NCBI RefSeq assembly: GCF_007655485.1
Contig: NZ_VJXQ01000005.1
Location: 184,063 to 225,390, forward strand
Length of the DNA stretch: 41,328 nucleotides
Direction of reading: 5' to 3'
DNA from: Halobellus captivus
Lineage (GTDB): Archaea; Halobacteriota; Halobacteria; Halobacteriales; Haloferacaceae
The translations under genes were made by a program, and so were the position numbers. Positions within the stretch are counted from its first letter, which is position 1. Each line of letters starts with the position of its first letter. A model generated the notes under the pieces. The model saw only the letters and a program-made list of their open reading frames with translations, was not told where the DNA came from and did not search any database. Positions 1,632-20,139 of this stretch are shown piece after piece.

Positions 1632-3458
1632 CTATTCAAACGTCATCTCGCCGTCACCGTTGATACAGCTGAAGTTCTCGGAAGTGGGTTCCTCGCCTGC
1701 TGGCCAGAGCGGGGAGGTGTCTGCATCTGCAGGATACCGTAGGACGCCATCGTTATCCCAGCCCCAACCAGCGTCTTCGAGCCGTTGCCGCGCGCCCTCG
1801 ATGTCACCAGTGACATCGTCGGTCATCTGATAGAGCATATCTTCCGGTGGACGCGATGGGTGTGATGGAAGGAATACAACCGAATGCAGCGTCTGCTCGG
1901 GTTCTGCCCCACCGTTCGCCGCCAGCTCATTCATGAGGGATCGATCCAAGGATTGACCAACAGCCGCACGGAATTCACGGAATTTGACCGGAGCTATCGG
2001 ATGCTGCGGAGCGAGATAGTGAGGCCACATTGAGGAGTTTATCACTGTCTCACCCGCGTCGAATTCCTCTTCGACTCGTTGGGCGGCACCGGCAGAGATA
2101 CTGCTCACGATTTCGAGTTCACCTGCGAGGAATGCTTCCATCACTGCGGATTCCTCAGTATAGGACACGTAATCGACGCCGTGACTCGGGTTGTGTACCG
2201 GATGTTCGTCCTCACGCGGATCCATCGAGAGGAACTCACCTTGCGTCCATTCCGTCACTTCAAACGGACCTGAGTTCACGAACGGGGGCGTGAACGTCTC
2301 TGGATCCTCCTCTGCGCCTGCTTCAGTCCATGCTGACTCGCTCACGATTCCCCAGCGGGGGAACTTCGTTGGAACGAAGGCCGGACGGGGGGATCCAAAC
2401 TGGAACGTGAGCGAGCGCTCGTCATTGACCTCGATCGTGTACTCCTCAGGTGGTTCGGCATACGGGTATACTCCGACGTTCGACCAGATGTGTTCGAAGG
2501 TGTATTTGACGTCGTTTGCCGTGACGGGATCTCCATTGCTGAACGTCGTCTCTCTGAGTTGAACGTCGATCTGTTGGGAATCCTCGGAAACTTGCCAGTC
2601 GTCTGCGAGGACCGGGGTTAACTCGAAGTTTTCATCGAATTCTGCGAGCGGCGAATGCAGATATGTATTGAGGCGTGCGAGTGCTGGTCCTGCGGATTGC
2701 TTGTAGTAATTCTTTAGTCTGAGGAGGGATGGATTGCCATTCACGGCAATTCGGTCTCCCTGCGTCGGAGTCGACTTGATTAACGGATATGGTGCCGTAT
2801 CATGGATTCCTGTTGTTCCGAGACCACCGATATCCACTCGTTCGGAGTTGTACGCACCCCGCAGGATATCGGGAAGAACTGGAATGAGCCCAACGTCTTC
2901 ACTCATCACCGAATGGGCTTGGTTGACGAGGTCTCGTCTCTCGTCAGGAGACGTGGCTGAACCTTGGGCCATCGCCAATTCTGAATACTCGCAGTTAGCG
3001 TAGTTTGCGAGGTTTGATTGGCCGTCTCCACCGGCCCAATCGATCGCCCAGCGGCGGGTCATCTGATGAGGATCTAACCGCATTGGGTTCATCCCCGAAG
3101 AGAAAAACGAGAAGTGCGAATTGCGCTGATCTTCAATAACGTTCTCGATCATCGTTCCGGCCGCAACCGGCCGGACATCCACGGAGACACCAAGAAGCTC
3201 TTCGAGGTTCTCGGTTATCACAGGGGCCATTGACTCTTGGTATGATGTCCAAGCAATATTCGCGTAGTACTCCACAGTGACCGGTTCGGGGACACGTTCA
3301 CCGAGATTCTGCCCGCCCCCACCGTCACCGCTACCTCCGTCTCCGGAGCCATCGCCGGAACTGTTTCCACCGCACCCGGCGAGCCCAGCCATTGCGAGGG
3401 CACCGATTGATCCTAACACTTTTCGTCGTGGTATGGTATCTCGTCGCCTGTCAGCCAT
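1632..3458 (-). CDS. Extracellular substrate-binding lipoprotein of an oligopeptide-type ABC importer, circularly permuted SBP_bac_5
   Basis: Binding protein of 608 aa. It has a Tat motif RRKVLG (11-16) and a lipobox ending in Cys29, so it should be exported folded and lipid-anchored. A Gly/Ser/Asp-rich linker (30-50) follows. The domain order is unusual. Residues about 60-215 (ending in the ANCEYSE, DERRDLVNQAH and EDVGLIPVL segments) match the part that is C-terminal in DppA/OppA. Residues about 235-330 (VLADDWQVSED, FSNGDPVTANDV) match the usual N-terminal lobe, and 490-575 (FREFRAAVGQSLDR, ARQRLEDAGW) match the usual middle-to-late segment, after which the protein ends. Cys156 and Cys598 are the only cysteines besides the lipobox. 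It is the first gene of the minus-strand transporter cluster and has its own TATA. Confidence 0.93.
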   Translation of the reverse strand: MADRRRDTIPRRKVLGSIGALAMAGLAGCGGNSSGDGSGDGGSGDGGGGQNLGERVPEPVTVEYYANIAWTSYQESMAPVITENLEELLGVSVDVRPVAAGTMIENVIEDQRNSHFSFFSSGMNPMRLDPHQMTRRWAIDWAGGDGQSNLANYANCEYSELAMAQGSATSPDERRDLVNQAHSVMSEDVGLIPVLPDILRGAYNSERVDIGGLGTTGIHDTAPYPLIKSTPTQGDRIAVNGNPSLLRLKNYYKQSAGPALARLNTYLHSPLAEFDENFELTPVLADDWQVSEDSQQIDVQLRETTFSNGDPVTANDVKYTFEHIWSNVGVYPYAEPPEEYTIEVNDERSLTFQFGSPRPAFVPTKFPRWGIVSESAWTEAGAEEDPETFTPPFVNSGPFEVTEWTQGEFLSMDPREDEHPVHNPSHGVDYVSYTEESAVMEAFLAGELEIVSSISAGAAQRVEEEFDAGETVINSSMWPHYLAPQHPIAPVKFREFRAAVGQSLDRSLMNELAANGGAEPEQTLHSVVFLPSHPSRPPEDMLYQMTDDVTGDIEGARQRLEDAGWGWDNDGVLRYPADADTSPLWPAGEEPTSENFSCINGDGEMTFE

Positions 3459-4558: not shown

Positions 4559-4740
4559 ACAAATCGGTAAGGTGATCGCCTACAAATAGCTACTGATAGA
4601 TACTGCGAAAGTGATCGATGGAGAAGGCTGTAGCCTGCCACACTGGTCTCCGAAAAAGAGGTTTTCCGCCTAGCAAAAGTGGCAGTATATCAAGGTAAAA
4701 CCTATATGTAGGGGTTTCCTCATTGGGATTCAGAGGAAGA

Positions 4741-5667
4741 ATGGTTAAGAATAACCTCAGTCTGATGGATAATCGATTTGCCAACAATTACGTGGTGCGT
4801 AATGTAGTTGGATCTCTGAGACTTATGCTGGAAGACAAAGCGACAATGGTGTATTTCAGCTATCTCGTTTTTGTCTTGTTTCTCGGTGCGTTCGGACCAA
4901 TGCTCGCGCCTTACCCATACGATGAAACACTCTACGTGAATGGGGAAATACTCCGTTCGGCGCCACCGTCTCTCGCCCATCCACTGGGGACGAACAACAT
5001 CGGGCAGGATATCTTTTCTAGGCTCCTTTACGGAGCTCGGCCGACAATGATCACCGGTCTGCTCGGCGGATCAATGATTATTAGCATTGGAATGACCGTC
5101 GGTGTTACTGCCGGGTACGTCGGTGGCCGCGTCGACAATACGCTGATGCGAATTACTGATGTTGTGTACGGTGTCCCCCTCATCCCATTCGCGATCGTCC
5201 TCGTCTCGCTTTTCGGAATCGGATTTGTCCAATCAATCGTAGTGATCGGACTATTACTCTGGCGGGGGAATGCTCGAGTTCTCAGATCACAAGTGCTACA
5301 GATACGCGAGCGGCCCTTCATTCTAGCCAGCAAGGCGGCCGGTGCGAGTAGGACCAGAATCGTCTTCAAACACGTGTTACCAAATATTGCGCCGATGGCG
5401 GTGCTGTTTTTCTCGCTCGGTATCGGATTCAGCATCTTGATCCAAGCAACGCTCGCGTTCCTGGGGGTTACCAGTCCGTTTATTCCATCCTGGGGCGTTA
5501 TGGTTCGAAGTGCATACAACTCGGGATTGATGTCACAAGCTTGGTGGTGGTCGCTCCCGCCCGGATTGATGATCGCATTTACCGTACTTGCAACGTTTAT
5601 GTTCGGTCGTAGCTACGAGAACATCGCTGGACAGGGTAACGAAGAAGCGTTCGTACAGGCTGGATAA
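4741..5667 (+). CDS. Oligopeptide/dipeptide ABC transporter permease, DppC type (second system)
   Basis: Permease of 309 aa and first gene of a DppC-D-F-B operon. It has an N-terminal helix at about 35-55, the HPLGTNNIGQDIFSRLL segment, and a BPD_transp_1 domain with an EAA loop around KAAGASRTRIVFKHVLP. ATG 4741 is preferred over an in-frame TTG at 4723. A TATA-like CTATATG (4702-4708) lies 33 nt upstream, and a GAGGA element sits shortly before the ATG, so a short leader is expected. The next gene starts 5 nt after the stop. Similarity to the permease at 553-1479 extends over nearly the whole length, which suggests duplication of a complete importer. Confidence 0.94.
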   Translation: MVKNNLSLMDNRFANNYVVRNVVGSLRLMLEDKATMVYFSYLVFVLFLGAFGPMLAPYPYDETLYVNGEILRSAPPSLAHPLGTNNIGQDIFSRLLYGARPTMITGLLGGSMIISIGMTVGVTAGYVGGRVDNTLMRITDVVYGVPLIPFAIVLVSLFGIGFVQSIVVIGLLLWRGNARVLRSQVLQIRERPFILASKAAGASRTRIVFKHVLPNIAPMAVLFFSLGIGFSILIQATLAFLGVTSPFIPSWGVMVRSAYNSGLMSQAWWWSLPPGLMIAFTVLATFMFGRSYENIAGQGNEEAFVQAG

Positions 5668-5672
5668 TCACA

Positions 5673-6701
5673 ATGACTACACCACTACTTGAAGCCGAAA
5701 ACCTCACAGTCCAGTACGAAACAGCGAACGGGATGTTGACCGCTGTTTCCGATGCCTCGTTTACGATTAACACCAGCGAGTATTTCGGGCTCGTCGGCGA
5801 ATCTGGATGCGGAAAGAGCACGATAACCAAGGCAGCATTAGGGGGCCTTGATGATAACGGACGGATTACGGCCGGAAAGATCCGTTACAAGGGTGAAGAG
5901 ATACAGGATTACACCGAGAAGGAATTCAATGAGAAGCTCCGGTGGAAAGAGATCTCGTGGATCCCGCAGGGGTCGATGAACAGTTTGGACCCCCTACAGC
6001 GAATCAGCGAACAGGCGGCAATGATCGCGAGAGTCCACACAGATCTCAGCAAAGATGAGGCGGTTGAACGCCTCCGTGAGATGTTCGATATCGTTGGCCT
6101 TCCGAAGGAACGGGTGACGGACTACCCGCACCAATTCTCCGGCGGGATGCAACAGCGTGCGGTCATTGCACTCGCTCTGTTTCTTCGACCCTCCCTCCTG
6201 ATCGCCGATGAACCGACGACTGCCCTTGACGTCATTATGCAGGATCAGGTGTTCAAATATCTCAACGAGATCAAACAGGACGGGGAGATTGGAATGCTCC
6301 TCATCACCCACGATATCAGTCTTGTTTTCGAATCTTGCGACCGGATGTCGGTGATGCACGCAGGACAGATATCCGAAACCGGCACTGTCGAAACCATCTA
6401 CGAGGAACCTCACCACCCCTATACGATCCTCCTCAAGGAGGCTTTTCCCGATCTCCGTTATCCGGATCGCGAACTCGGTATCATCGAAGGGAACCCTCCG
6501 CAGAATATGGGGGAGGTCGACTACTGCACGTTCGTCGACCGCTGCCCGTGGGCAGTCCCCGAGTGTCAGGAACAAGCGCCCTCACTGGAACCTGTTGGCG
6601 GAGACGAAGATCATCCGGTGTCTTGTTTCAGGCGAGAAGAAGTCCTCGAGGAGTACCGCGCTGAAAACGAAACTGTGGCGCAGACTGGGGGTGACCAATG
6701 A
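5673..6701 (+). CDS. Oligopeptide/dipeptide ABC transporter ATPase, DppD type
   Basis: ATPase subunit of 342 aa. It has Walker A GESGCGKS (42-49), Q-loop Gln99, signature SGGMQ (156-160), Walker B LLIADE (175-180) and H-loop His213. The C-terminal oligo_HPY extension carries the Cys-containing segment CTFVDRCPWAVPEC and a final conserved Cys. That extension marks peptide/nickel-type transporters. The gene begins 5 nt after the permease and its last codons overlap the DppF start by 4 nt (ATGA), so translation is probably coupled. All catalytic motifs are intact. Confidence 0.96.
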   Translation: MTTPLLEAENLTVQYETANGMLTAVSDASFTINTSEYFGLVGESGCGKSTITKAALGGLDDNGRITAGKIRYKGEEIQDYTEKEFNEKLRWKEISWIPQGSMNSLDPLQRISEQAAMIARVHTDLSKDEAVERLREMFDIVGLPKERVTDYPHQFSGGMQQRAVIALALFLRPSLLIADEPTTALDVIMQDQVFKYLNEIKQDGEIGMLLITHDISLVFESCDRMSVMHAGQISETGTVETIYEEPHHPYTILLKEAFPDLRYPDRELGIIEGNPPQNMGEVDYCTFVDRCPWAVPECQEQAPSLEPVGGDEDHPVSCFRREEVLEEYRAENETVAQTGGDQ

Positions 6702-7756
6702 CGGAGAACGCGGGGCCGGTCCTCGAGACGCAGAACCTCGAGAAGTACTTCGATCAAAGCACAAGCATAATTGATACGCTCCTGCGCAGGGAGAACGAGA
6801 AGGTACAGGCAGTCGACGGGGTGTCGATTGCGCTTGACAGTAACGAGTCTCAGGGTGTCATCGGCGAGAGCGGATGTGGCAAAACGACCCTCCTCAAGAC
6901 GCTGATGGGGCTCTACCAACCGACAAATGGAAAGATTCTATTCAAGGGCAATGATACGGCCGAATTCGGCCGAAAAGACTGGAAGGAGTTCCGCCGCAAC
7001 GTTCAGATCATTTTCCAGGATCCCTTCGATTCACTCGACCCGAAGCTGACCATTCGAGAAACGCTCGAAGAGCCACTCAAGATACACAACATCTCAAACG
7101 TTGACGAGCGTATCGTCGATATCCTCGAACAAGTGGAGCTCAACCCACCGGAAAAGTATCTCGATCGGTTCCCCCGACAGATGAGTGGCGGAGAACTCCA
7201 GCGTGTCTCAATCGCCCGTGCGCTTATTTTGGAGCCAGAAGTTATCCTTGCGGACGAGCCGGTCTCAATGCTCGACGTCTCGACTCAGGCATCGATTTTG
7301 AATTTGCTTTCGGAGTTAGTCGATGAACTGGACGTGTCGATGTTCTACATTTCTCACGACCTTTCGACGGTATCGTACGTCTGTGACCGGATTAACGTGA
7401 TGTACCTTGGACGGATCGTTGAATCTGCACCCACCAGTGAGTTGTTAGAAGATCCACAACACCCGTACTCCCAAGCATTGATCGATGCAGTTCCGATTCC
7501 GGACCCGAAGTACAACCGTGGCTACACAACGCTAGAAGGCGATGTACAGAACCCCGTCGGAATCGGAGACGGGTGTCGGTTTCGAGATCGATGTCCCGAT
7601 CGAATGGACGTCTGTGAGCAGACGCCCAAGTTCATCGACGTCGAATCGGATGATGACCGGAAGGTGGCTTGCCACCTGTATTATGATCATCCACAGCATA
7701 CGGAAACAGCGCATACAGACGAGGAGCAACAGGAACCGGAGGTGTCCGCACAATGA
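6698..7756 (+). CDS. Oligopeptide/dipeptide ABC transporter ATPase, DppF type
   Basis: Second ATPase of the importer, 352 aa. It has Walker A GESGCGKT (56-63), a Q-loop in IIFQDPFDSLDP, signature SGGEL (163-167), Walker B VILADE (182-187) and H-loop His220. The C-terminal oligo_HPY region has CRFRDRCPDRMDVC and a later Cys. It overlaps dppD by 4 nt. The DppF assignment rests on the FQDP-SLDP form of the Q-loop and the second position in the ATPase pair. The 79 nt before the DppB gene contain only a weak imperfect GC-rich stem. Confidence 0.96.
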   Translation: MTENAGPVLETQNLEKYFDQSTSIIDTLLRRENEKVQAVDGVSIALDSNESQGVIGESGCGKTTLLKTLMGLYQPTNGKILFKGNDTAEFGRKDWKEFRRNVQIIFQDPFDSLDPKLTIRETLEEPLKIHNISNVDERIVDILEQVELNPPEKYLDRFPRQMSGGELQRVSIARALILEPEVILADEPVSMLDVSTQASILNLLSELVDELDVSMFYISHDLSTVSYVCDRINVMYLGRIVESAPTSELLEDPQHPYSQALIDAVPIPDPKYNRGYTTLEGDVQNPVGIGDGCRFRDRCPDRMDVCEQTPKFIDVESDDDRKVACHLYYDHPQHTETAHTDEEQQEPEVSAQ

Positions 7757-7835
7757 TGTTACAACCGACTAGTAAACCCGCCGATTGCGGGGTTCGTACA
7801 GTGCTTAATCAGAACCATTCGCTGGGTGATCACCG

Positions 7836-8828
7836 ATGAGCCGCGTTCGTTACGTCGCTTTCAGGTCCGTACAGACGGTCGTCTTACTGTTCTTGATCCT
7901 GACGTTCTTGTTTTTCTTCTTCAGGATGCTCCCCGGTTCCTACGCAGATCTGATGGCGTTTCAAGGCGCAAACGAGGCGACCGTTGAAGCAATGCAAGAA
8001 AAATGGGGGTTGAACGACCCGCTGTACGTCCAGTATTTCCGATATGTCACTAACCTCCTGACAGGTGACGCTGGATCGTCACTCCAGTTCCGAATCCCCG
8101 TTTGGGACTTCGTGAAGATGAAAATCTTCAACTCACTTCTCCTTGTTGGCCCCGCGATCACGGTTGGCTACATCTTCGGTACCTTGATCGGTGGATTCCT
8201 CGGGAACAGACGGGGATCAAAGGAAGAGAAATATGGTCTGATCCCGCTCATCCTGACCGGATCATTCCCATCGTTCGTCACAGCAATTATGTTTATCATC
8301 GTGTTCGCGGGATGGCTAAACTTGGTGCCGACGTCCGGAATGTTCGGCTTTTCCAACCCGTACAACAGCAGCGAATTCGCGTGGTGGCGGCCCTACTTAA
8401 CCAAAGACTTCGCAATCCACTACGCGCTGCCGTTCCTGACGATCGTGGCCAGATATACCTACCTACCGGCACTCGTTATGCGAACCAACGTCGTTGAGGT
8501 CCTTGGGCAGGACTTCTTCTACTATCACAGGATGACTGGTCTTCCTGGAGAACAGCAACTCAAACGGCTGATGAACCACGCAATCCTCCCAGTCGTCACG
8601 CTGTACCCGATCTCGATGACGCGAGCCATCGGAGGTCTCGTCGTGATCGAAATGGTCTTCAACTGGCCAGGAATTGGCTACGCACTCGTACAGGCTGTGT
8701 TCGCCCGTGACTTCCCGGTGGTACAATTCGTTTTCTTCTTAGTCGCAACCTTCGTCGTCGTCGGGAACTTCGCGGTCGATATCCTGTACGGCTACATCGA
8801 CCCACGAGTCTCAGTCGATAACAACTAA
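7836..8828 (+). CDS. Oligopeptide/dipeptide ABC transporter permease, DppB type
   Basis: Permease of 330 aa with about six membrane helices. The N-terminal helix at about 10-32 is followed by the FRMLPGSYADLM segment, the LNDPLYVQYFRYVTNLLTGD loop typical of DppB, and an EAA loop around GLPGEQQLKRLMNHAILP. Placing DppB last (C-D-F-B) differs from the usual bacterial A-B-C-D-F order. A T-rich stretch right after the stop (8840-8846) may serve as an archaeal terminator. Together with 4741-7756 it forms a complete membrane and energy module without its own binding-protein gene in the same direction. Confidence 0.95.
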   Translation: MSRVRYVAFRSVQTVVLLFLILTFLFFFFRMLPGSYADLMAFQGANEATVEAMQEKWGLNDPLYVQYFRYVTNLLTGDAGSSLQFRIPVWDFVKMKIFNSLLLVGPAITVGYIFGTLIGGFLGNRRGSKEEKYGLIPLILTGSFPSFVTAIMFIIVFAGWLNLVPTSGMFGFSNPYNSSEFAWWRPYLTKDFAIHYALPFLTIVARYTYLPALVMRTNVVEVLGQDFFYYHRMTGLPGEQQLKRLMNHAILPVVTLYPISMTRAIGGLVVIEMVFNWPGIGYALVQAVFARDFPVVQFVFFLVATFVVVGNFAVDILYGYIDPRVSVDNN

Positions 8829-9275: not shown

Positions 9276-11120
9276 CTAGGAGGGAGTGTAGTCCGAATTG
9301 TAATCGTTTTCCCCAGTCACACACGCGAAATCCTCAGGGGATGGCGTCTCACCTTGCGGCCAGAGTGCATCAAGATCAGCATCCGGTGGGTAGTGGAGCC
9401 GACCTTGGTCGTCCCACCCCCAACCTGCCTCTGAGAGGTGCTGGCGTGCCAGTTCCTCGTCTCCCGTCGGGTCATCAGTCATTTGTGTTAGCCTGTCCTC
9501 TGGTGGTCGCCACGGATGAATCTCGGTGAACGGACACGAGTAGAGTTCCACATTTGAATCGCCCCGCCAACCCAGTTCATTCGCTTGCTGCCGGTCGATT
9601 GCAGCGCCGATAGCGGCCCGGAACTCCTGGAACTTCGTCGGGCCCCAGTTGGCCTGCGGGTACACAGCGTAATTGGCGATGCCGCCAGCAATGACAACAT
9701 CTCCGGCATCTCCCATTTCGTCTCGCACCCGCTGTGCGGTACCCGTCGAGAGCCGCGCAGCCATATCAATCTCACCAGCTAGGAATGCTTGGATGATCGT
9801 TTGGGTGTCCTGATACACCTGAAGGTACAGATCGTGGTCCGGGCTGTATACTGGGTGGGAATCAGCTGGAGTAAGTTGCATACTCGAACCAATCGTGATA
9901 TTCGACACCTCGAACGGTCCCGACCCGATAATCGGATCAAATTCGAATCCGTCCGGATCATCCATCGCTGGCTCCCAGGTGTCCTTATGGAGAATTCCCC
10001 AGCGCGCGAAGACATTGCCCTCTAGCGGTGGGTACGGCTCCTCGAGGTTAAACTGGACCGTTTGATCGTCGACAACCTCTATCGATTCGTACGGCGGCGA
10101 CGATGCGTACGGGTAGTTGGTGGCATTCTCGGACATAAGCTGGAACGTGAACTGTACGTCCTCGGCAGTAATCGGATCGCCGTTGTGGAAGGTACCACCG
10201 TCAATGAGCTCTACCGTTACTTGCCTACCCTCATTGGATGTTTGGATGCTGTCTGCCAGCACGTTCTGAAGTTCGTAGTTCTCGTCGTAGGAAACGAGCG
10301 GCGAGTGAACGAGACGCGTCCATATTCCCGGTACGTAATCGATCGTTGGGAAGTTTGTTGTCTGGACCGTCACTGATGATATATTGTACACGATCTGGTT
10401 ATCATCAATGGGCTCGGAGTTGATGAGCGCGAGCGGGTTCTGGTCGAGAACTCCGGCATCACCAATACTCCCGGGGTTGACTTGCTCAGTGTTGACTGCA
10501 CCGTATGCGAGATAACTGAACACGGGAACGCCAGCCATCTCTTCGCTCCAGATCTCCATCGCGCTGTTCACGTGCTCTCTGCGTGTCTCGTCGTCCGGTG
10601 CCTGCCCTTGCTGGACAGCGTGATACGTGTACTCACAGTTTGCCCAGTTCGGCGTGTTGGACTGTCCATTCGCACCTGCATAATCAGCCGAAAACCGACG
10701 CGTCAACCCCTGCGGATCGAGTCGGGAGAGATTGTTAGTGTGCGCCCAGAGCGTCAGGGAAGCTGTTCGTTCGTCGTGCAGGAAATTTTCGACGTTCGTA
10801 GCCCATTCGGTGGGGACTAGTTCGACCTCCACTCCCATTCGGTCTTGCATATTGCTTTGAACGATTGGACAGACGCGCTCTAGCATACTTGAGGTTCCCC
10901 CAAGATTGGACCAGAACTCGAACTGCTGTGTAGCGACCCGCTCGCCAAGTTCGCCCCCGCCTGAGTCGCCTCCCCCGCTGTCGCTGTCATCGCCCCCGTC
11001 ACTAGACCCACTATTTCCGCCACAGCCTGCGAGTCCTGCAATTGACGTCGTTCCTAGAACTTGCAAGGCCCTCCGTCGGCTGATAGTACCCCCTGTAATC
11101 TGTGGTGATTCTTCACTCAT
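9276..11120 (-). CDS. Extracellular substrate-binding lipoprotein, circularly permuted SBP_bac_5 (second system)
   Basis: Binding protein of 614 aa with a Tat motif SRRRALQVLG (14-23), lipobox Cys33 and an Asp/Ser/Gly linker (35-56). Domain order matches the permuted paralogue at 1632-3458. A block normally found at the C-terminus (VCPIVQSNMQDRMGVEVELV, then NWANCEY and REHVNSAMEIW) comes first. The usual N-terminal lobe (NVLADSIQTS, FHNGDPITAEDV, about 285-325) and then FQEFRAAIGAAIDR and ARQHLSEAGWGW (about 497-570) follow, ending at 614. Cys162 and Cys600 are shared with the paralogue; Cys84 and Cys529 are extra. ATG 11120 is chosen over an upstream TTG because a TATA lies 29 nt before it. 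It probably serves the importer at 4741-8828. Confidence 0.92.
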   Translation of the reverse strand: MSEESPQITGGTISRRRALQVLGTTSIAGLAGCGGNSGSSDGGDDSDSGGGDSGGGELGERVATQQFEFWSNLGGTSSMLERVCPIVQSNMQDRMGVEVELVPTEWATNVENFLHDERTASLTLWAHTNNLSRLDPQGLTRRFSADYAGANGQSNTPNWANCEYTYHAVQQGQAPDDETRREHVNSAMEIWSEEMAGVPVFSYLAYGAVNTEQVNPGSIGDAGVLDQNPLALINSEPIDDNQIVYNISSVTVQTTNFPTIDYVPGIWTRLVHSPLVSYDENYELQNVLADSIQTSNEGRQVTVELIDGGTFHNGDPITAEDVQFTFQLMSENATNYPYASSPPYESIEVVDDQTVQFNLEEPYPPLEGNVFARWGILHKDTWEPAMDDPDGFEFDPIIGSGPFEVSNITIGSSMQLTPADSHPVYSPDHDLYLQVYQDTQTIIQAFLAGEIDMAARLSTGTAQRVRDEMGDAGDVVIAGGIANYAVYPQANWGPTKFQEFRAAIGAAIDRQQANELGWRGDSNVELYSCPFTEIHPWRPPEDRLTQMTDDPTGDEELARQHLSEAGWGWDDQGRLHYPPDADLDALWPQGETPSPEDFACVTGENDYNSDYTPS

Positions 11121-11274: not shown

Positions 11275-12678
11275 CTATGACGTTCCAGCAGGAGGCTGCT
11301 CTCCTTGTTTGGCTTTGGCACGCTTCGCAGCGTGTTTACCTGCAGTTCGACCAGTAGCGAGACCGAGAGAGAGCCCAAGGTGGTAATAGCTGTGATCTTC
11401 AGAACGACCGACTTCGATCCCAGCGGCGTACAGACCCGGAATCGGTTCGATGCTAATCTGGGTCATATCCGTCGGAACGTACTCCAGTCCGGTTGTCGAT
11501 CGCTGCTGTGAGACTACCTCTGCATTATGATTAATGTCGAGTCCACCGCGGATGTACACGATAGTTGGTTGAACCGCGATCGCATAGAACGGTGGTTCAT
11601 CGATCGCATACCGGTTATCCTCCCTTGGTGGTCGAAGCCGCTCGTCGCTCTCGCCGCGGACGGCTGCGTTGAACGTCCTGATCGTCTCCACCGCTTGATA
11701 GCCATCCGCGCCGAGTTCATCGAGTCCGTTCCCTAACTCCTCAAGCGTCTCAGCCTCGACGACGGGCGCACCTGCATCTCGTGCGCCCTCAACGAGTGTT
11801 CCGATTTTGGGGCTGAAGGCCATTTGATCCGTATGGGACTCGTAGATATCGTGATCTAAGACGAGATACCCGTCTTCCTCGACGTTGTTGAGGAACTGTG
11901 AGACGAGACCGGTTGATCCGCTCACGGCTTTCGACTCGTCGGTGAATCGGATACCGTCGGCGTTGAGAATAACCGTTTGGTCCCGGTATACGGTACTTGT
12001 GTCTCGACGGTTGTCGTCTGTGATCTGAGCAGGCGGCGCTGGTCGAACCCCGCCCAGCGCGTTCGAGAGCCCTCGCGTGGTCTTCGCACCGATGTTTCGT
12101 GCTGCGATGAAGCCCTCTCCCGTTGACCACGGGTGGCGGCCATTCCAGATATTTGAGTGCGGAAAATACTGTTCGATGAGATCCGCGTTTCCACTGAACC
12201 CGCCGGTCGCCAAGATTACGCTGGCTGCATTAATCTCGAATTTTCCATTCTCGTTGTGGGCAACCACACCAGAGATTTCATCCTCGTCGTCAAGTTTCAG
12301 TCGCTTGAACGCCGTCTCCCTGTGGATCTCGCCGCCGTTCTCCTCGATTAACGCTGCCATCTCGTCGATGAACTGTAACGTATCTATCCGACCGATCCGT
12401 TCGGCATCGTCAGTCAACCACCGATCATCGGGATCATTGACGGAGATTCCATGATCTCTTAGCCATTCGATTCCCGTTTCGACCGGCTCAAACACGTCAA
12501 TCGCTGGATCTTTGTTCTTCTCTACGGCGAACGTGCCGCCAGTTACTGGGAGTGTCCCCCCTAGTGTGGGAGCTTTTTCGAGCAAAACCACGTTTTCGCT
12601 GTACTCTAACGATCGAAGGGTCGACACGAGCCCAGCAATACCTCCGCCGACAACGACTACGTCCGCATCGAAGTCCAT
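11275..12678 (-). CDS. FAD-dependent oxidoreductase, FAD_binding_2 (fumarate reductase/succinate dehydrogenase flavoprotein-like)
   Basis: Flavoprotein of 467 aa. The dinucleotide-binding loop is VVGGGIAG (9-16), followed by EKAPTLGGT and a TGG segment. The C-terminal FAD-contacting motif is IPGLYAAGIEVGR and then LGLSLGLATGRTAG. A PPFYAIAVQPTIVY segment precedes GGLDIN, as in fumarate-reductase-like domains. The family includes fumarate reductases, 3-ketosteroid dehydrogenases and tricarballylate dehydrogenase, all of which make or reduce an activated C=C bond. There is no signal peptide, so it is probably cytoplasmic. It is about 45% identical by eye to the paralogue at 24422-25810. The substrate is unknown; an unsaturated or saturated carboxylic acid fits the neighbourhood. 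Confidence 0.9.
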   Translation of the reverse strand: MDFDADVVVVGGGIAGLVSTLRSLEYSENVVLLEKAPTLGGTLPVTGGTFAVEKNKDPAIDVFEPVETGIEWLRDHGISVNDPDDRWLTDDAERIGRIDTLQFIDEMAALIEENGGEIHRETAFKRLKLDDEDEISGVVAHNENGKFEINAASVILATGGFSGNADLIEQYFPHSNIWNGRHPWSTGEGFIAARNIGAKTTRGLSNALGGVRPAPPAQITDDNRRDTSTVYRDQTVILNADGIRFTDESKAVSGSTGLVSQFLNNVEEDGYLVLDHDIYESHTDQMAFSPKIGTLVEGARDAGAPVVEAETLEELGNGLDELGADGYQAVETIRTFNAAVRGESDERLRPPREDNRYAIDEPPFYAIAVQPTIVYIRGGLDINHNAEVVSQQRSTTGLEYVPTDMTQISIEPIPGLYAAGIEVGRSEDHSYYHLGLSLGLATGRTAGKHAAKRAKAKQGEQPPAGTS

Positions 12679-12700
12679 ACGTCAGGATAAAATGTGGGAA

Positions 12701-12707
12701 ATATTAA
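12701..12707 (-). promoter_or_regulatory. TATA box of the flavoprotein gene at 12678
   Basis: TTAATAT on the minus strand, centred about 26 nt before the ATG in the 91 nt gap after the aldehyde dehydrogenase gene. It suggests independent leaderless transcription. Confidence 0.5.
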
Positions 12708-12769
12708 GCGCTTTGGGTTACTGGGGACGACGATAAACTGTCTCGACGAATCTACGGCTAATAGCGCAC

Positions 12770-14260
12770 TTAGCGTAGTTGGAACGGGTTCGCTACTTCA
12801 CCAGTCTGGTCAATGTAGATGCACTTCTCTTGTCGATATTCATCTAGCCCTTCCTTTCCACCTTCTCGTCCGAGTCCGCTATCTTTGAAGCCGCCGATCG
12901 GCGCACGAGTCGCACCCGTACGGTATTCATTTATCCAGACTGTTCCAGCATCGATTTGATTCGCCACGCGCTGTGCTTGTCGCATATCTTCGGTCCAGAC
13001 GCCAGCGGCGAGTCCGTACCGCGTGTCGTTTGCGATTTCAATTGCCTCCTCTTCATCGGAAAACTGAATAACGGCTGCGACAGGCCCGAATATTTCGTCT
13101 CTGGCGATCGTCATCTCGTTGTCTACATCGACAAAGATGGTTGGCTCGATGAAACAGTCGCCCGGGAGATCATCCGGTCGGTCGCCACCGTACGCGATTG
13201 TCGCTCCCTCGGACGTTCCGATGTCGATGTACTTCCGCACTTTTTCCCACTGTTTGTCGAAGGCGATCGGCCCCATCTCTGTTTCAGGCTCTCGCGGGTC
13301 GCCGAGACGGATCTGCGACGCTCGATCGACAAACCTGTCGACGAACTCATCGTAAATCTCCTCGTGCACCAACACTCTCGAACCCGCAACACACGTTTGG
13401 CCGGTCGCAGCGAAGATACCCTTAACCGCCCCAGTTACGGCGTTCTCGAGTTCAGCACTGGGGAACATAATGTTCGGGCTCTTCCCTCCGAGTTCGAGCG
13501 TCACTGGACTCAGGTTACGACCGGCGCTCTCTGCGATACTCCGCCCGGTCGAGGAACTTCCAGTGAACGCCAGTTTATCTACATCCTCATTGTCGACGAG
13601 CGCCGCACCGGTGTCTCCGTGTCCGGTGACGACGTTGTACACTCCCTTTGGGAGATTCGTTTCTTCAGTGATGATCTCAGCCATCCGAAGTGCGCTCACC
13701 GGTGTCTGTTCGCTCGGCTTGTGAACAAATGTGTTCCCCGCTGCTAGTGCGGCACCGAGCTTTCCGACTGTTAATAGGAGCGGGGAGTTCCAGGGCGTAA
13801 TTGCACCAACGACTCCGTAGGGTTCGTGAACAACGTAGTTGAACATTCCCTCATCCTTGGTGTTGACCGGGATGACCTCACCACGGTCAGAATCGATGAG
13901 ACTTGCGTAGTGACGGAGTGTACCACCGAATCCAGAGGCCTGACCCTGCATCTCGCGGATCAGTTTACCGTTTTGTCTCGTTTCGAGTTCGCCGAGTTCT
14001 TCGGCGTGATCGTCGAGCGCGTCCGCGATCGAATGCAGGTAGTCGTATCGCTCTGAAATGGTCGTTCGTCTCCACTCTCGGAAGGCTTTTTTCGCGGCGT
14101 TGACCGCTTGATCAACGTCTTCTTTGGTTCCGTGCGGTACGGATCCCCAGATCTCTCCGTTATAGGGGAATTCGACGTCTATCCGCGTATCTCCGGTCGA
14201 TTCGACGAACTCGCCATTAATAAAATGCTGGTAGTGCTCAGATTGTTCACGTAGGGCCAT
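12770..14260 (-). CDS. NAD(P)-dependent aldehyde dehydrogenase
   Basis: ALDH-superfamily enzyme of 496 aa that oxidises an aldehyde to a carboxylate. The catalytic apparatus is complete: Asn158 in TPWNSP, general base Glu256 in LELGGKSPN, nucleophile Cys290 in GQTCVAGSR, the FTGSSSTGR coenzyme segment, and EIFGPV. The ATG at 14284 lies 8 codons upstream. The internal ATG 14260 is preferred because a TATA (14284-14290) covers the upstream ATG and sits about 25 nt before 14260. The overall look is of betaine-aldehyde or hydroxymuconic-semialdehyde type dehydrogenases, but the substrate is not deducible. The paralogue at 28301-29761 is more distant. Confidence 0.93.
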   Translation of the reverse strand: MALREQSEHYQHFINGEFVESTGDTRIDVEFPYNGEIWGSVPHGTKEDVDQAVNAAKKAFREWRRTTISERYDYLHSIADALDDHAEELGELETRQNGKLIREMQGQASGFGGTLRHYASLIDSDRGEVIPVNTKDEGMFNYVVHEPYGVVGAITPWNSPLLLTVGKLGAALAAGNTFVHKPSEQTPVSALRMAEIITEETNLPKGVYNVVTGHGDTGAALVDNEDVDKLAFTGSSSTGRSIAESAGRNLSPVTLELGGKSPNIMFPSAELENAVTGAVKGIFAATGQTCVAGSRVLVHEEIYDEFVDRFVDRASQIRLGDPREPETEMGPIAFDKQWEKVRKYIDIGTSEGATIAYGGDRPDDLPGDCFIEPTIFVDVDNEMTIARDEIFGPVAAVIQFSDEEEAIEIANDTRYGLAAGVWTEDMRQAQRVANQIDAGTVWINEYRTGATRAPIGGFKDSGLGREGGKEGLDEYRQEKCIYIDQTGEVANPFQLR

Positions 14261-14283
14261 ACGCAAATGAAACATCTCACTCA

Positions 14284-14290
14284 TAATAAA
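14284..14290 (-). promoter_or_regulatory. TATA box deciding the start of the aldehyde dehydrogenase gene
   Basis: On the minus strand TTTATTA overlaps the far-upstream ATG (14284) and lies about 25 nt before ATG 14260. The mature start is therefore likely 14260. Confidence 0.5.
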
Positions 14291-14343
14291 TCATTATCCC
14301 TGTAAACCGTTTGACCCGAGGCGATTCTGCTGAGATCCTTGGC

Positions 14344-15513
14344 TCACAACCCTAGCTGGAGCCATCGATTTACCGCAATAGACGCCATACTCATTACACA
14401 TAATGCTGCAAGCAAACCAAATGCAACGGTCCAACCGAACGATTCCGCGAGGATACCGACCGTAACCGATCCAAGCGATCCCAGAATCATATATACGGTT
14501 CTGACGAGACCGAACTCGGTACCACGGTCTCCGTCCGTCATTCGGTCGAGAAAACGGGTCTGAACTACGATAACGAGACATGTTCCAAACGCGAGCAGTG
14601 TAACACCGAGAAGAGGAGCCAAACTGAAGGGTGTCAAAATCACAGCGATGCCGACGACCACCAGTAGCAGACACCCCGCGATTGTCAGATCCTGTCCGAA
14701 GCGATCCGAGACTGATCCGATAGTAACGCTACCAAGCGCGGAGCCCAGGAAGAAGAGCGAGAAAAGGGCTCCAGAAGCCGTTGCGCTGTAGCCGTGGTAC
14801 TGGACGAGAAACACGGGGAGAAATGAAATCAGCCCTTGATTATAAAATTCGCCCACGACTGCGATGCCGATCGAGAAAGATATCGGCGGTTGTCGGATTA
14901 ACTCGGTGACGATATCCAGATTAACGCTGTCAGTAAACGATTGTGTTGGGTTCGTGGGCGCGGTTGGTCCGACCTTCGAATAAAATAGTACGAACACCGG
15001 GAGCGATACCGCTACTGTAGATATAACCGCCAGCCGCCATCCGTATCGGACTCCAATCCACGTTATAAGCACAGGTACAACGAGACCGGCAAATGGAGCC
15101 CCGAAAGCATGAATCCCTATGACTCTGCCATCTCTGTCGAACTTCCTCGTCAGAAACGTCGTTGCTGCGGCGTACTCCAAACCGGCGAATCCACCGAGAA
15201 GAATACATCCTACAAAAAATAGCTCAAATACGGGTGTGAGGCCTAACAACACGCTCATAACACAAACTCCACCGAGAGATAACAGGATAACTTTCTTTTC
15301 TCCGTGCTGTTCACCGAGGACCCCACTAGGATACTGTGTCAGGGCATATGCAAGCCACATCCCCGTCAGTGCTACCCCAATTAACGATTTGGAAATCTCG
15401 AACTCGTCGAGCACGAACGGTGTCAGCGGACTAACCGCTAATCGAGCGGCCATCGTGACAAAAAATGCGGACGTGCATAGAACGAGAATGTGATTCCTGT
15501 GATGACCGTTCAT
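14344..15513 (-). CDS. MFS transporter, 12 transmembrane helices
   Basis: Major facilitator of 389 aa in the cytoplasmic membrane. The N-half has the loop 2-3 signature region GVLGEQHGEKKVIL, and the C-half repeat is GSVSDRFGQDLT; about twelve hydrophobic stretches are visible. It is the third minus-strand gene after the MaoC-type hydratase (17584) and the CoA-transferase (17027), with 86 nt to the latter, so it may bring in the acid that those enzymes process. No good TATA lies within 35 nt of the ATG; an AT-rich element at 15569-15577 is the nearest. It is closer in length to compact carboxylate or drug carriers than to sugar carriers, and its substrate is unknown. Confidence 0.9.
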   Translation of the reverse strand: MNGHHRNHILVLCTSAFFVTMAARLAVSPLTPFVLDEFEISKSLIGVALTGMWLAYALTQYPSGVLGEQHGEKKVILLSLGGVCVMSVLLGLTPVFELFFVGCILLGGFAGLEYAAATTFLTRKFDRDGRVIGIHAFGAPFAGLVVPVLITWIGVRYGWRLAVISTVAVSLPVFVLFYSKVGPTAPTNPTQSFTDSVNLDIVTELIRQPPISFSIGIAVVGEFYNQGLISFLPVFLVQYHGYSATASGALFSLFFLGSALGSVTIGSVSDRFGQDLTIAGCLLLVVVGIAVILTPFSLAPLLGVTLLAFGTCLVIVVQTRFLDRMTDGDRGTEFGLVRTVYMILGSLGSVTVGILAESFGWTVAFGLLAALCVMSMASIAVNRWLQLGL

Positions 15514-15599
15514 TGATGATTCAGTCGGAGACCTGGAATTGGGTGGTTTCGGAAGCCAATCTGCCTGCTTATTATTCTGGTCAGTATGCGCCTGGATAT

Positions 15600-17027
15600 C
15601 TAGGTGGTGTGCGGGATGTGGCCACCCTGTGTTTTCGCTTTTTGAAGGTACTCTCTCAGGCTGTCTCTATGATCCGGGTGAGCGCAGCTCTCAATGATTT
15701 CAGTGGCTCGTTCCAGTGGTGACAGGCCACGAAGGTCCGCTACACCTTGTTCGGTGACCACCACGTCAATGTCGTGTTCTGTGTGGTCGATATGCTCTGC
15801 TTTCGGGACGATTCGTGAGATCCCTTTATCCGCTAATACAGAGGGGAGCGTACAGACGGCAACAAGTGCATTCTGATTGAAATCAGCGCTTCCTCCGATT
15901 CCGTTCAGCACCGTCGTCCCCCCGACGTGTGTGGAATTTACGTTTCCATAGATATCGACTTCCACGGCGCTGTTGACGGCCATCACGCCGAACCGATCGA
16001 TAACTGCCCCATTATTAGATACATCTGTGGGTCGGAGAACAATGTTCTCACTATATCGATCGATATCCTCAAACAGCCGTTTTTGTCCGTCTTCGGAAAG
16101 TGCGAGGGAGGTGGCACTCGTACTCGAAAGCCTGCCAGAGTCAATCATATCGAGCAATCCGTCCTGAATTACTTCCCCGTAGTAGATCACCTCTCGGCCG
16201 TCGAATGACATCTCGTTTAGTTCGCCCATCAGCGCGTTTCCTAGACTGCCAACCCCGAATTGGAGACGCAATGAATCGTCGTACACAGATGAGCGTTCCA
16301 TCTCTTCACGGACGAATTCTCCAAACTGCGTTGCGATGGCTCTGTCCGTCTCTGTTGGTGATCGAAATGAGTACGGGGAATCTGCGCGGTCGGTCTCAAC
16401 GACCGCACACAGCGCATCCGGTGAGAACTCTACTTTCGACTGTCCGATCCGGTCTCCCGGTGACGACAGCGGAATTGGTTCTCTCTCAGGAGGTGGTCCT
16501 GGCCGATAGATATCGTGCACCGCTTGGAGCGCGAGAGGCTGTGAGGAGTTGACTTCAACGATCAACTGGTCGACGCTCTCGACGAACGCTGGTGTCTGGC
16601 CGATTGACGTCGATGGGATTAACCAATCCTCGCCGACGGCAATTGCTTCGATGATCGCGATATCGGGATCTGCTAGGTTTCCATATTGGAGTTCATCAGC
16701 AACGTCAGAAACGTTTCTATCGTGATAGGCGACACGATTTTCGTTAATGGCTGCACGTAGCTGTGGCTGGGATTGATATGGGAACCGCCGTTCTATCTTT
16801 TCCGCTGTCACGAGTGCTTCGTCGATCTCTTCACCGACGCTTCCACCGCTGATAACGGTCAGCGAATGGTTCTGTGCACTTTCTGCGAGTGCTAGTGGAA
16901 CGGCTTTGGGATATCCAACGCTCCCGAAGCCACTTACGAGTACAGTAGCCTCAGACGGGACCTTGGAAGCCGCCTCCGTGGCAGTCTGTATGGGTAACGC
17001 GCCGTTTATCCGGTTTTCGACGGTCAC
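15600..17027 (-). CDS. Acetyl-CoA hydrolase/CoA-transferase family protein (Cat1/AarC/Ach1 type)
   Basis: CoA-transferase of 475 aa. Recognisable segments are LQFGVGSLGNALMG (255-268), YYGEVIQDGLLDMID (282-296), in which Glu285 is the likely glutamyl-CoA residue, and VEVDIYGNVNSTHVGG followed by NGIGGSADFNQNA, characteristic of succinyl-CoA:acetate-type enzymes. The GTG start at 17027 overlaps the MaoC stop as GTGA, so translation is coupled; an in-frame ATG at 17066 lies inside that gene. With the hydratase and the CitE-type lyase it makes the activation step of a C5-dicarboxylate cleavage route. Known itaconate CoA-transferases are from a related branch of the same superfamily, so itaconate is a hypothesis. 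Acetate or propionate activation is the alternative. Confidence 0.9.
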   Translation of the reverse strand: MTVENRINGALPIQTATEAASKVPSEATVLVSGFGSVGYPKAVPLALAESAQNHSLTVISGGSVGEEIDEALVTAEKIERRFPYQSQPQLRAAINENRVAYHDRNVSDVADELQYGNLADPDIAIIEAIAVGEDWLIPSTSIGQTPAFVESVDQLIVEVNSSQPLALQAVHDIYRPGPPPEREPIPLSSPGDRIGQSKVEFSPDALCAVVETDRADSPYSFRSPTETDRAIATQFGEFVREEMERSSVYDDSLRLQFGVGSLGNALMGELNEMSFDGREVIYYGEVIQDGLLDMIDSGRLSSTSATSLALSEDGQKRLFEDIDRYSENIVLRPTDVSNNGAVIDRFGVMAVNSAVEVDIYGNVNSTHVGGTTVLNGIGGSADFNQNALVAVCTLPSVLADKGISRIVPKAEHIDHTEHDIDVVVTEQGVADLRGLSPLERATEIIESCAHPDHRDSLREYLQKAKTQGGHIPHTT

Positions 17028-17584
17028 GATACGTCCTCCGACGTGGTACCAACGTCTTCCGGCCATCCTGGCGGTCGTTCCGCAGATGGTTTCGCGTACT
17101 CGCGCTTCAGCACCATCGGTGTACGCTCTAATGAGAGGACTAGTTCTCCATCTTGGTTGTAGGTCCGCAGCTTCGTGGTGACGATTCCGACGTGGTCTCG
17201 CGAAGAACTCTCACGTTTTGCGGTTACTTCGGACTCCGCAAAGAGGGTGTCTCCGTGATATACCGGTGCGTGATGTCTGATATCATCATAGCCCAGATTT
17301 GCCGTAGCGTTAACCGAGATGTCGATAACGGACATTCCGACTGACAGAGCGATGACGAACGTTCCATCGACGAGTCGCTCGCCGAACTCCGTTTCGGCGG
17401 CGTAGGCCTCGTTGAAATGCATTGGATTCAGATTCATTGTGATGTTTGTCATCCAGACATTGTCTGTCTCGGTTACGGTTCTACCAAACGGATGTTTGTA
17501 CACGTCGCCGACCTCAAAGTCCTCGTAATACCTTCCGTGCCATCCCTCAACTATCTGTTTGCTTTTGGGGTCGTTGTCTGTCAT
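17024..17584 (-). CDS. MaoC-family enoyl-CoA-type hydratase (mesaconyl/itaconyl-CoA hydratase-like)
   Basis: Hot-dog fold hydratase of 186 aa. It opens with GRYYEDFEVGDVYKHPFGRT (17-36), then the active-site helix around NLNPMHFNEAYA with His56, and ends in GIVTTKLRTYNQDGE. The Asp of the usual D-x-N-P-x-H hydratase-2 motif is Asn51. As far as I recall this is normal in the mesaconyl-CoA hydratase-like branch (which has NPQPLH), so it does not imply inactivity. ATG 17584 is chosen over TTG 17617. Its last four bases are shared with the downstream CoA-transferase. The divergent neighbour is a CitE-type lyase. The likely reaction is hydration of an itaconyl-, mesaconyl- or similar CoA to a 3- or 2-hydroxyacyl-CoA. 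Confidence 0.88.
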   Translation of the reverse strand: MTDNDPKSKQIVEGWHGRYYEDFEVGDVYKHPFGRTVTETDNVWMTNITMNLNPMHFNEAYAAETEFGERLVDGTFVIALSVGMSVIDISVNATANLGYDDIRHHAPVYHGDTLFAESEVTAKRESSSRDHVGIVTTKLRTYNQDGELVLSLERTPMVLKREYAKPSAERPPGWPEDVGTTSEDVS

Positions 17585-17836
17585 AGTCGTAGACTTCAGT
17601 AATATGGTCTGAAGCAAGACTCTGTAAAAAACGTTCGTATCTCTCGGTTCGGTGGTGTCTCTGACGGCTTTCGCATCCTAGCGGAGAACCACTGTACGGC
17701 GTTCAATTTGAGCAGTCTACGTTACAGTAGTATCGACCAGCACTGTTTCGCGGGAATACTGTCCAATCTGTGGACTCACTCGGCTCTGGAATGAACCGCA
17801 ACCGAATAGAAGTCCTTCAATTACCCGACCGGAATC

Positions 17837-17844
17837 CTTATTTT
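17837..17844 (+). promoter_or_regulatory. TATA-like element of the CitE-type lyase gene
   Basis: CTTATTTT lies about 26 nt before ATG 17867. This supports that start over the TTG at 17843, which would overlap the element. The 282 nt region (17585-17866) is shared with the divergent hydratase operon. Confidence 0.5.
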
Positions 17845-17866
17845 GAAATCGCTAATCTACGGTCGT

Positions 17867-18715
17867 ATGCCCCGAAGAAGTGTATTATTCACGCCTGGTA
17901 ACAAACCGGACCTGTTCAGCAAGGCAGTCAAAGTGAGCCCTGACACGGTCGTTTTTGATCTTGAGGACGCTGTTCCATCAACACAAAAAGATTCGGCGAT
18001 CGGTGCCGTTTCGAGGTTCTTGACAGAGGTTTCAACGCCCCCCGGTACGGAACTCTGTGTCCGTCTCAATCGGGGAGATGATGGGATAGCCGAGCTCCAA
18101 TCGTTCAAACGGGATGGTGTACTTCCGAACCTTGACGCCGTGATGCTCCCCAAAACAGAGTCTGTAGCTGATGTCAATCGGATTGGACAGGCGCTCCCCG
18201 ATAAGGGTGACTCACTCAAGGTATTCGCTCTCATCGAAACTGCAAAAGGGATTCTTTCGGCCGCTGAGATCGCAAGTGGATCGCAGACTGACGCATTAGT
18301 ATTAGGTGGTGAAGACTTTGCAACGGATATCAATGCCCGGCGCACGGCGACAGGAGCAGAGATACAGTATGCCCGTCAGCACTTGATTGTGGCAGCAGCT
18401 GCACACAATGTGGATGCGATAGATACGGTGTATACCAACTATGAGGATACTGAAGAGCTTCAGAAAGTATCGAAGCAAGCCGTGGATTTGGGATTTGATG
18501 GGAAGCTCGCGATCCATCCATCACAGGTAGAGGTTATCACCACTGCGTTCACCCCGGACGATGCAGAGATTGCTTGGGCAAAAAAGGTCGTCAAGGCCAA
18601 CAAGGACGCTTCTGATGGCGCATTCAGTGTTGACGGTCAAATGATCGACGCACCGGTACTCAAGCAGGCTGAAAATATCCTCGAACGGGCAAGCGATAAT
18701 TCTACAGACGGGTAA
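17867..18715 (+). CDS. HpcH/HpaI (CitE-like) aldolase/lyase; candidate malyl-, methylmalyl- or citramalyl-CoA lyase
   Basis: TIM-barrel lyase of 282 aa. It starts MPRRSVLFTPGNKP, typical of CitE/Mcl proteins. DLEDAV (31-36) is visible, as are Arg66, the metal ligand Glu124 in ALIETAKGI, and Glu149-Asp150 in LGGEDFATDI. The family cleaves beta-hydroxyacyl-CoAs: citryl-, malyl-, beta-methylmalyl- or citramalyl-CoA. It is divergent from the MaoC-type hydratase and CoA-transferase genes. Together they form the three-step set seen in itaconate degradation, where (S)-citramalyl-CoA gives acetyl-CoA and pyruvate. The gene is followed 152 nt later by an IclR regulator on the same strand. The free-standing CitE citrate lyase beta subunit is unlikely, as no CitD or CitF is present. 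Confidence 0.9.
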   Translation: MPRRSVLFTPGNKPDLFSKAVKVSPDTVVFDLEDAVPSTQKDSAIGAVSRFLTEVSTPPGTELCVRLNRGDDGIAELQSFKRDGVLPNLDAVMLPKTESVADVNRIGQALPDKGDSLKVFALIETAKGILSAAEIASGSQTDALVLGGEDFATDINARRTATGAEIQYARQHLIVAAAAHNVDAIDTVYTNYEDTEELQKVSKQAVDLGFDGKLAIHPSQVEVITTAFTPDDAEIAWAKKVVKANKDASDGAFSVDGQMIDAPVLKQAENILERASDNSTDG

Positions 18716-18837
18716 CTACCACCGTCTCAGCTGACTCTCTAGCAATTACCCATACTACTGCGGTAACGGATGTCGGATTACGATTCTCCACGACCTCTCA
18801 AACTTATCGGAACCCGCGCGTCGGCTCCGTGAATGGG

Positions 18838-18845
18838 TTTAATTA
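18838..18845 (+). promoter_or_regulatory. TATA box of the IclR regulator gene
   Basis: TTTAATTA lies about 26 nt before ATG 18868. It overlaps the beginning of a longer GTG-initiated frame (18829), which is therefore not used. Confidence 0.5.
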
Positions 18846-18867
18846 TCTTGGATATCTATCCTCTGAT

Positions 18868-19671: not shown

Positions 19672-19994
19672 CGAATCTGCTCACCGAGGCAACCGACGCT
19701 TAGATCACCCATATTTCATCCCTCAACGGAGTTCAGAGGGCTGGATCGTGAGAAGCATCCGTCCGCTTTGGATGCTCCGAGTTGACAATCGAGGATACGA
19801 GCCGGGCATACAATATCCAATATTGCCGGATTTGAGTTTAAATTTGGATTGTGCACTGTGGAAATAACAAGCGTACATCTATGATATCCTTTGGTAGTTC
19901 GATCGGGATTTTTGGTGTCTTGTTCCATTTGGTATCTCAAAACCTAATTGTTATTCGTTCACAAGTGACCTATGGCTTGTAATGTTAATTCATA

Positions 19995-20012
19995 CCACAT
20001 CCGCATATGTGG
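19995..20012. promoter_or_regulatory. Candidate operator: inverted repeat next to a TATA box
   Basis: CCACAT and ATGTGG arms are separated by 6 nt and end 3 nt before CTATAAAATA. This is the position where an archaeal activator or repressor would act. The neighbouring IclR regulator is the obvious candidate, with no direct evidence. Confidence 0.3.
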
Positions 20013-20130
20013 GATCTATAAAATAACTGCCAATATTGAGCTATATTCTCCGCTTATCAGCCTTCACATCCTGTTTGTAGTGCTGGACCCATCGGCACAG
20101 TACTACTCACAGAACGACCACATCCACCAG

Positions 20131-20139
20131 TAATTATTT
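20131..20139 (+). promoter_or_regulatory. TATA-like element before the PrpD-like gene at 20167
   Basis: TAATTATTT lies 28-36 nt before GTG 20167. A palindrome CTGATC-AATC-GATCAG (20152-20167) covers the presumed transcription start and could be an operator. Confidence 0.4.

Follow-up and report, generated by a model that had tools for sequence, protein, structure and literature searches.

A circularly permuted family 5 solute-binding protein encoded beside importer genes in Halobellus captivus, and apparent recurrence of the permuted order at one loop

The window (the whole 41,328-nucleotide stretch of Halobellus captivus DNA analysed here) encodes two solute-binding proteins, P0001 and P0002, in which the parts of the family 5 chain follow one another in swapped order. 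P0001 is read from the minus strand, a point absent from the preliminary description of this DNA. In its product, a glycine-rich linker is followed by a segment of approximately 175 residues that corresponds to the C-terminal third of a normal family 5 protein, and then by the normal N-terminal two thirds. The two genes and the parts of P0001 are as follows.

9276-11120, minus strand: P0001, permuted family 5 solute-binding protein, 614 aa, stop codon within the coordinates
11022-11120, minus strand: P0001 signal region, residues 1-33, with a twin-arginine motif (SRRRALQVLG) and a lipobox (LAGC), both read from the sequence
10413-10934, minus strand: P0001 front segment, residues ~63-236, corresponding to the C-terminal region of normally ordered family 5 proteins (OppA 349-513, DppA 336-505, AppA 355-514)
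9387-10412, minus strand: P0001 rear segment, residues ~237-578, corresponding to the N-terminal region of normally ordered family 5 proteins (AppA 18-361, DppA 1-346)
9279-9386, minus strand: P0001 C-terminal tail, residues 579-614, a trait of family A (the window's own group of permuted proteins)
10635-10637, minus strand: codon of P0001 Cys162, the partner of Cys600 proposed from the co-occurrence of cysteines across family A rows
9321-9323, minus strand: codon of P0001 Cys600, in the tail
1632-3458, minus strand: P0002, permuted solute-binding paralogue of P0001, 608 aa, with a PF00496 match

The seven motifs quoted earlier from P0001 are all present and in the order then given (residues 84-102, 158-164, 181-191, 286-295, 313-322, 497-510 and 558-569). 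The paralogue had been described as built in the same way, and this holds: the PF00496 match lies at the chain end in both proteins, and the two are 41% identical over residues 12-606 of P0001 and 8-604 of P0002, so that order and boundaries are common to both. The match spans residues 284-575 of P0001 (profile positions 2-286 of 368; E 6e-47) and residues 279-579 of P0002 (positions 1-288 of 368), and at 160.9 and 166.6 bits the two window proteins pass the gathering cut-off of 32.4 bits. As it stops at positions 286-288 of 368, the final portion of the model has no counterpart behind the match. The whole model was not found in normal order and its remainder lies ahead of the match, and P0001 is therefore classed as a permuted variant and not as an ordinary member of the family. 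PF00496 searches should accordingly be read with caution here, as the family model stops three quarters of the way through permuted proteins.

Comparison with proteins of known structure gave the same arrangement. In phmmer searches of PDB sequences, residues 265-576 of P0001 aligned with 26-325 of 4ofl and residues 82-210 with 391-513 of 4qfk, while a profile of 23 permuted proteins matched AppA (1xoc) in swapped order, with profile positions 202-530 on residues 17-347 (E 7e-69) and positions 38-176 on residues 363-496 (E 1e-13). These swapped matches lie far beyond chance. A bacterial permutant searched against PDB sequences gave the same swapped picture as the haloarchaeal profile; all PDB chains in the displayed alignments have the normal order, and no listed best stretch covers both query modules. 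An AlphaFold model of P0001 residues 55-614 (pLDDT 93.8, pTM 0.91) could be aligned sequentially, over model positions 183-528, with the first 330-361 residues of normally ordered proteins (Z 20-23). The front segment folded alone reached a pLDDT of only 74.8, and its model aligned with OppA 1ola 349-513 (Z 8.4), DppA 1dpp 336-505 (Z 7.7) and AppA 1xoc 355-514 (Z 7.4). The predicted models therefore align to family 5 structures in two pieces and have the cluster C fold, although both are predictions from a program that knows the normal family 5 fold. In a fold search with the whole model, the rows listed were family 5 structures; no cluster B structure was among these rows, an absence by which nothing is excluded. 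The lobes of binding proteins are similar in general fold, and it could be argued that the matches are cross-matches between lobes and that the order has been misread. This is scarcely credible, given that the profile matches to AppA are specific and collinear inside each module and that the front-segment model falls, among the rows listed, on the last third of normal proteins; a misread order is rejected by the swapped AppA matches together with the structural alignments of both models. The order of P0001 and P0002 is circularly permuted, and profile searches and the two AlphaFold models agree on this. It is genuine and not an assembly artefact, as had been claimed, and is common to both paralogues and many homologues.

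Both proteins are encoded beside genes for Opp/Dpp-type ABC importers, which in the window are as follows.

553-1479, minus strand: OppC/DppC-type permease of the P0002 importer, whose ATPases and second permease continue to the left of the window
4723-5667, plus strand: OppC/DppC-type permease of the importer beside P0001
5673-6701, plus strand: OppD/DppD-type ATPase of the same importer
6698-7756, plus strand: OppF/DppF-type ATPase of the same importer
7836-8828, plus strand: OppB/DppB-type permease of the same importer, convergent with P0001

P0002 heads a minus-strand series in the order SBP-C-D-F-B, and P0001 stands tail to tail with the plus-strand C-D-F-B set at 4723-8828, so that two permease and two ATPase genes accompany each of the window proteins. 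Most permutants with enough flanking sequence likewise have two permease and two ATPase genes alongside, and a complete importer set is the usual answer to the earlier question of which transporter genes these proteins accompany. Annotated importer operons of this kind were seen in Nitratireductor, Ketogulonicigenium, Roseomonas, Halalkalicoccus, Haloarcula and Maritalea. Importers of family A (4723-8828 and those of L057-L078) are mostly C-D-F-B with the receptor at either end, unlike the usual opp/dpp operon order of B-C-D-F, and those of family B and of bacteria are mostly SBP-B-C-D-F. In a quick permease tree (131 rows, long branches flagged), the label ‘partner is permuted’ changed 6 times compared with 36 when shuffled; the order of the receptor has thus for the most part moved along with its importer. 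For the L054-type paralogue on contig C18 and its relatives (11 rows), a full importer set was not found nearby, and not every permutant need therefore be an importer receptor; these proteins may be receptors or carriers with another job. L054:6244-8091 forms, with L158-L164, L166 and L167, a further permuted haloarchaeal group, and a gene for a PAP2-type phosphatase adjoins the gene of this group in the three loci checked (L054, L158 and L163).

We consider it likely, at a probability of roughly 0.86, that P0001 is exported, probably carries a lipid anchor and serves an Opp/Dpp-type ABC importer as its receptor, with a chain in which the family 5 (cluster C) fold is circularly permuted. Of this, the order, the cut site, a complete predicted fold and the company of importer genes are shown by the data. 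It would capture its ligand by the usual closure of two lobes and dock on the neighbouring permeases; the simplest mechanism would be an ordinary receptor cycle with relocated termini, and the permuted proteins are functional-looking. The neighbouring genes may point to the substrate. A run of catabolic genes on the minus strand, at whose end P0001 stands, encodes a RipB-like hydratase, a CoA-transferase, an MFS carrier, an aldehyde dehydrogenase and an FAD-binding oxidoreductase, and because of this pathway, at 11275-23647, a carboxylic acid or related compound is weakly favoured over a peptide. Within the block, a succinyl-CoA:acetate CoA-transferase scored above its NCBIfam cut-off, RipB and RipC (itaconate degradation) scored below theirs, and an IclR-type regulator, an MmgE/PrpD protein and an aldehyde dehydrogenase are also encoded. 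The dipeptide-binding residues of E. coli DppA are given as R383 and D436 in the excerpt consulted of PMC12136057. Their equivalents were found in 0/45 and 7/45 family A proteins and in 8/58 and 14/58 of the normal proteins sampled, and, being rare in normal proteins too, they say little about the substrate of P0001. NikA, Opp4A, GsiB and other NCBIfam equivalogs all scored far below their curated cut-offs, and no link to nickel was obtained from the NikA-type match (56 against a cut-off of 393).

To follow the order across genomes, a profile for the front module (C) and another for the rear module (N) were made from family A and run on all ORFs of the retrieved loci. Proteins split cleanly into C-N or N-C: 124 ORFs had the front module first, 59 were normal, one was normal with a split C match and five had one module only, although 124 to 59 is not a natural frequency, as loci were picked by likeness to permuted proteins and duplicates are included. 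The genome of the window has five PF00496 matches, three of them C-N (P0001, P0002 and one on contig C18) and two N-C. The suggestion that the permutation defines a haloarchaeal subfamily stands for the group of P0001 and P0002 and fails for the permutation itself. Family A (23 rows, none bacterial, 100/100 in a tree of 109 rows) is a haloarchaeal subfamily, and the permuted order, with the same cut, occurs in Alphaproteobacteria, Deinococcota, Bacillota, Spirochaetota, Chloroflexota and others. A haloarchaea-only permutation is rejected by these C-N proteins of many bacterial phyla, as is the possibility, raised at the outset, that only the two window sequences are permuted. C-N proteins were found in MAGs of Clostridia, Trueperaceae, CSSED10-310, Spirochaetales, Alphaproteobacteria, Deltaproteobacteria and Herminiimonas, in Lentibacter, and on plasmids of Nitratireductor, Ketogulonicigenium, Roseomonas, Neorhizobium and Maritalea. 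The annotated permutants viewed carry the plain label ‘ABC transporter substrate-binding protein’. On the Neorhizobium galegae plasmid pNgVX (L138:5655-7308), the annotation gives a hypothetical protein and a short binding protein where the permuted receptor lies, which looks like a split gene or a wrong gene call.

Prevalence was estimated from full-span matches to the permuted profile, and all values are lower bounds, since the genome searches scored few candidates per genome and listed the best rows. In the phylum of the window, at least 28 of 246 genomes had such a match (24 of its own order or closer, four of another family, f11). Matches were also found in at least 8/190 genomes in the class of Lentibacter, at least 10/111 in the phylum of the Trueperaceae MAG (an eleventh genome matched in the normal-order range only), at least 6/199 in the phylum of the Clostridia MAG (a seventh in the normal range only) and at least 2/301 in the phylum of the Anaerolineae MAG (five others in the normal range). 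In the phylum of the Spirochaetales MAG (at least 1/149) and the class of the Herminiimonas MAG (at least 1/185), the match was the seed itself. Bacterial genomes viewed whole had one permutant amid several normal proteins, for example 1/9, 1/7, 1/24 and 1/5 matches.

The position of the cut is the same across these proteins. The new termini lie in the loop after the helix ending ‘LxeAGW..d.G.L.yP’, just ahead of the strand that opens the normal last third, with the old C and N termini connected by a short linker. Most of the bacterial permutants displayed end at the motif ‘AGF.W...G.L..P’ and begin with the next strand, their end falling mostly near the place of P0001 residue 578, beyond which family A has its extra tail. 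Across 45 family A rows, the tail cysteine and the cysteine of the ‘NYANCEY’ motif were both present in 40, both missing in five and never single. In the three of these five that were inspected, the gene stops just ahead of the tail cysteine; the five are close relatives and look like one clade, so the pair was probably lost in a single event. A Cys162-Cys600 disulphide may reasonably be proposed from this pattern, and the tail, its cysteine paired with that of the front segment, could staple the new chain end.

Whether the permuted proteins form one clade, as had been asked, was examined in trees for which the modules of each protein were set in one order, rows were thinned by shared 4-mers and rows with a cut module were dropped, leaving 101/137 usable rows in the first tree, 96/147 in the second and 109/168 in the third. 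They do not: a Deinococcota group, and probably also an archaeal family, became permuted independently. The idea of one permutation event for all, with the nested cases as tree artefacts, draws on the first tree, in which a single branch (SH-aLRT 97) parted 54 permuted from 47 normal rows before later cases had been found, and on a test of family f11 with one member, in which a single clade was not rejected (p 0.341). With E. coli references and further permutants added, however, two changes of order were needed in the 96-row tree and three in the 109-row tree, where a single clade of all permuted rows is rejected at p 1.5e-5. These clade tests are post hoc, as rows were added once the first tree had been seen. 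In the 109-row tree, a 98/95 branch sets apart the main clade, made up of families A and B, the L054 type and most bacteria; the permuted L155 of Deinococcota pairs as sister with L130 of Chloroflexota, which has the normal order (100/87); and f11 (L147, L153) stands beside E. coli DppA, deep among normal proteins. With two f11 members and without L155 and L165, in a reduced tree of 89 of the 109 rows (those two and 18 others removed), one clade was still rejected (p 0.016). L155 is also much nearer to L130, with 405 bits over two pieces, than to the permuted proteins, which reach 184 bits at best among the best nine rows listed. L155 and L130 align in swapped order at 48% identity in the rear module (L155 217-536 to L130 101-429) and 39% in the front module (60-210 to 433-590); the matched pieces are separated in L130 by residues 430-432 only, and the join has about six new residues. 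The L155 type was found full-span in at least 6/111 Deinococcota genomes, the other five proteins being 67-69% identical, and permease genes follow in five of the six loci, the contig ending there in the sixth. One origin for all permutants is rejected by the clade test, and we regard it as very improbable. The root was not inferred, so gain and loss are indistinguishable from the tree for the main clade; the L155 type and f11, being nested, are gains. The L155-type Deinococcota proteins were permuted independently, at the same loop as the main clade, and f11 is a probable third independent case. It is somewhat more probable than its converse that the loop joining the ‘LLxxAGY’ helix to the strand after it is a hot spot, cut and rejoined independently at least three times (main clade, L155 type and f11) with a working receptor kept beside its importer genes, probably through fusion of tandem copies.

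The route that would most likely have led to the permuted order is a tandem duplication with fusion, followed by loss of the outer halves. The order was fixed in one large, laterally spread lineage, and at least one further lineage acquired it anew at the same loop. A fused double protein, the expected intermediate, was not seen among the examined loci. Normal receptor ORFs occur in tandem, five in L105 and pairs in L102 and L128; in L105:6314-14878, from a Rhizobium MAG, the five normal-order ORFs stand in a row on one strand, and some of their stop-to-stop ends overlap. A chimera, in which the C-terminal piece of one binding protein came to stand ahead of the N-terminal piece of another, would yield the same order, and the front module is indeed less conserved than the rear by profile scores. 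We nevertheless hold this to be improbable, as both modules of L155 have the same best normal relative, L130, and the ratio of the two identities resembles that to other normal proteins; duplication with loss of the outer halves also amounts, in form, to joining two copies of a single gene, and with this the data agree.

It is also possible to view the permutation as an adaptation to membrane tethering, an idea raised as a possibility for the permuted protein TpMglB-2 in the excerpt consulted of PMC4990184. A lipobox-like motif is present in 44/45 family A rows and 21/22 haloarchaeal family B rows. By the domain layout of OppA, the new termini would be in the lobe opposite the normal ones, and the lipid anchor would then have changed lobes with them. 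However, 22/28 bacterial main-clade permutants, and L155, have no lipobox by a crude motif test and look freely secreted. Anchoring cannot therefore be the general reason for the permutation, and as an explanation it fits most bacterial members poorly; we consider it unlikely, though less so than the chimera or the single event. Within f11, L153:5733-7496 (minus strand) has a hydrophobic, probably membrane-spanning stretch past the new C terminus and L147 and L148 have an N-terminal lipobox, and the family thus shows two anchoring styles.

Family 5 proteins are common prokaryotic nutrient receptors, and their chain order is usually assumed to be fixed. Recurrent permutation at one site shows which loop this fold tolerates opening, and, if the hot spot is real, the permutants amount to a natural replicate experiment in circular permutation. 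They are also natural templates for engineered permuted sensors, and L155 with L130 offers a paired natural comparison of the effects of chain order on folding, export, anchoring and docking. No earlier report of a natural family 5 permutant was found in the open-access literature, which is weak evidence of absence; among the papers listed, TpMglB-2 was the one natural permuted binding protein. A natural permutant is thus already known for cluster B, and the surprising part here is recurrence.

The normal proteins AppA (1xoc), OppA (1ola) and DppA (1dpp) have the same modules, the same predicted fold and the same kind of importer genes as P0001, but are ordered N-C where the P0001 type is C-N. 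Proteins of the NikA/NikZ type (4oet, 4oer) are among the structures that the rear segment matches best (4oet, Z 23.2) and, unlike P0001, have the normal order. The closest parallel in chain order is TpMglB-2 (Tp0684) of Treponema pallidum, described in the excerpt consulted of PMC4990184 as a solute-binding protein, circularly permuted in nature and part of a probable ABC importer, that is found in many species, still binds ligand and changes conformation on binding. Its authors proposed the name ‘Type Ic / Cluster Bc’, and by analogy the family 5 permutants would be ‘cluster Cc’. As far as that excerpt goes, TpMglB-2 has the cluster B (sugar) fold and the P0001 type that of family 5 (cluster C); the moved segment is roughly the last 70-100 residues in the former and about 150-180 in the latter, with different cut sites; and the TpMglB-2 type belongs to treponemes and Gram-positive bacteria, whereas the order described here is spread across archaea and many bacteria and is the product of a recurrent event.
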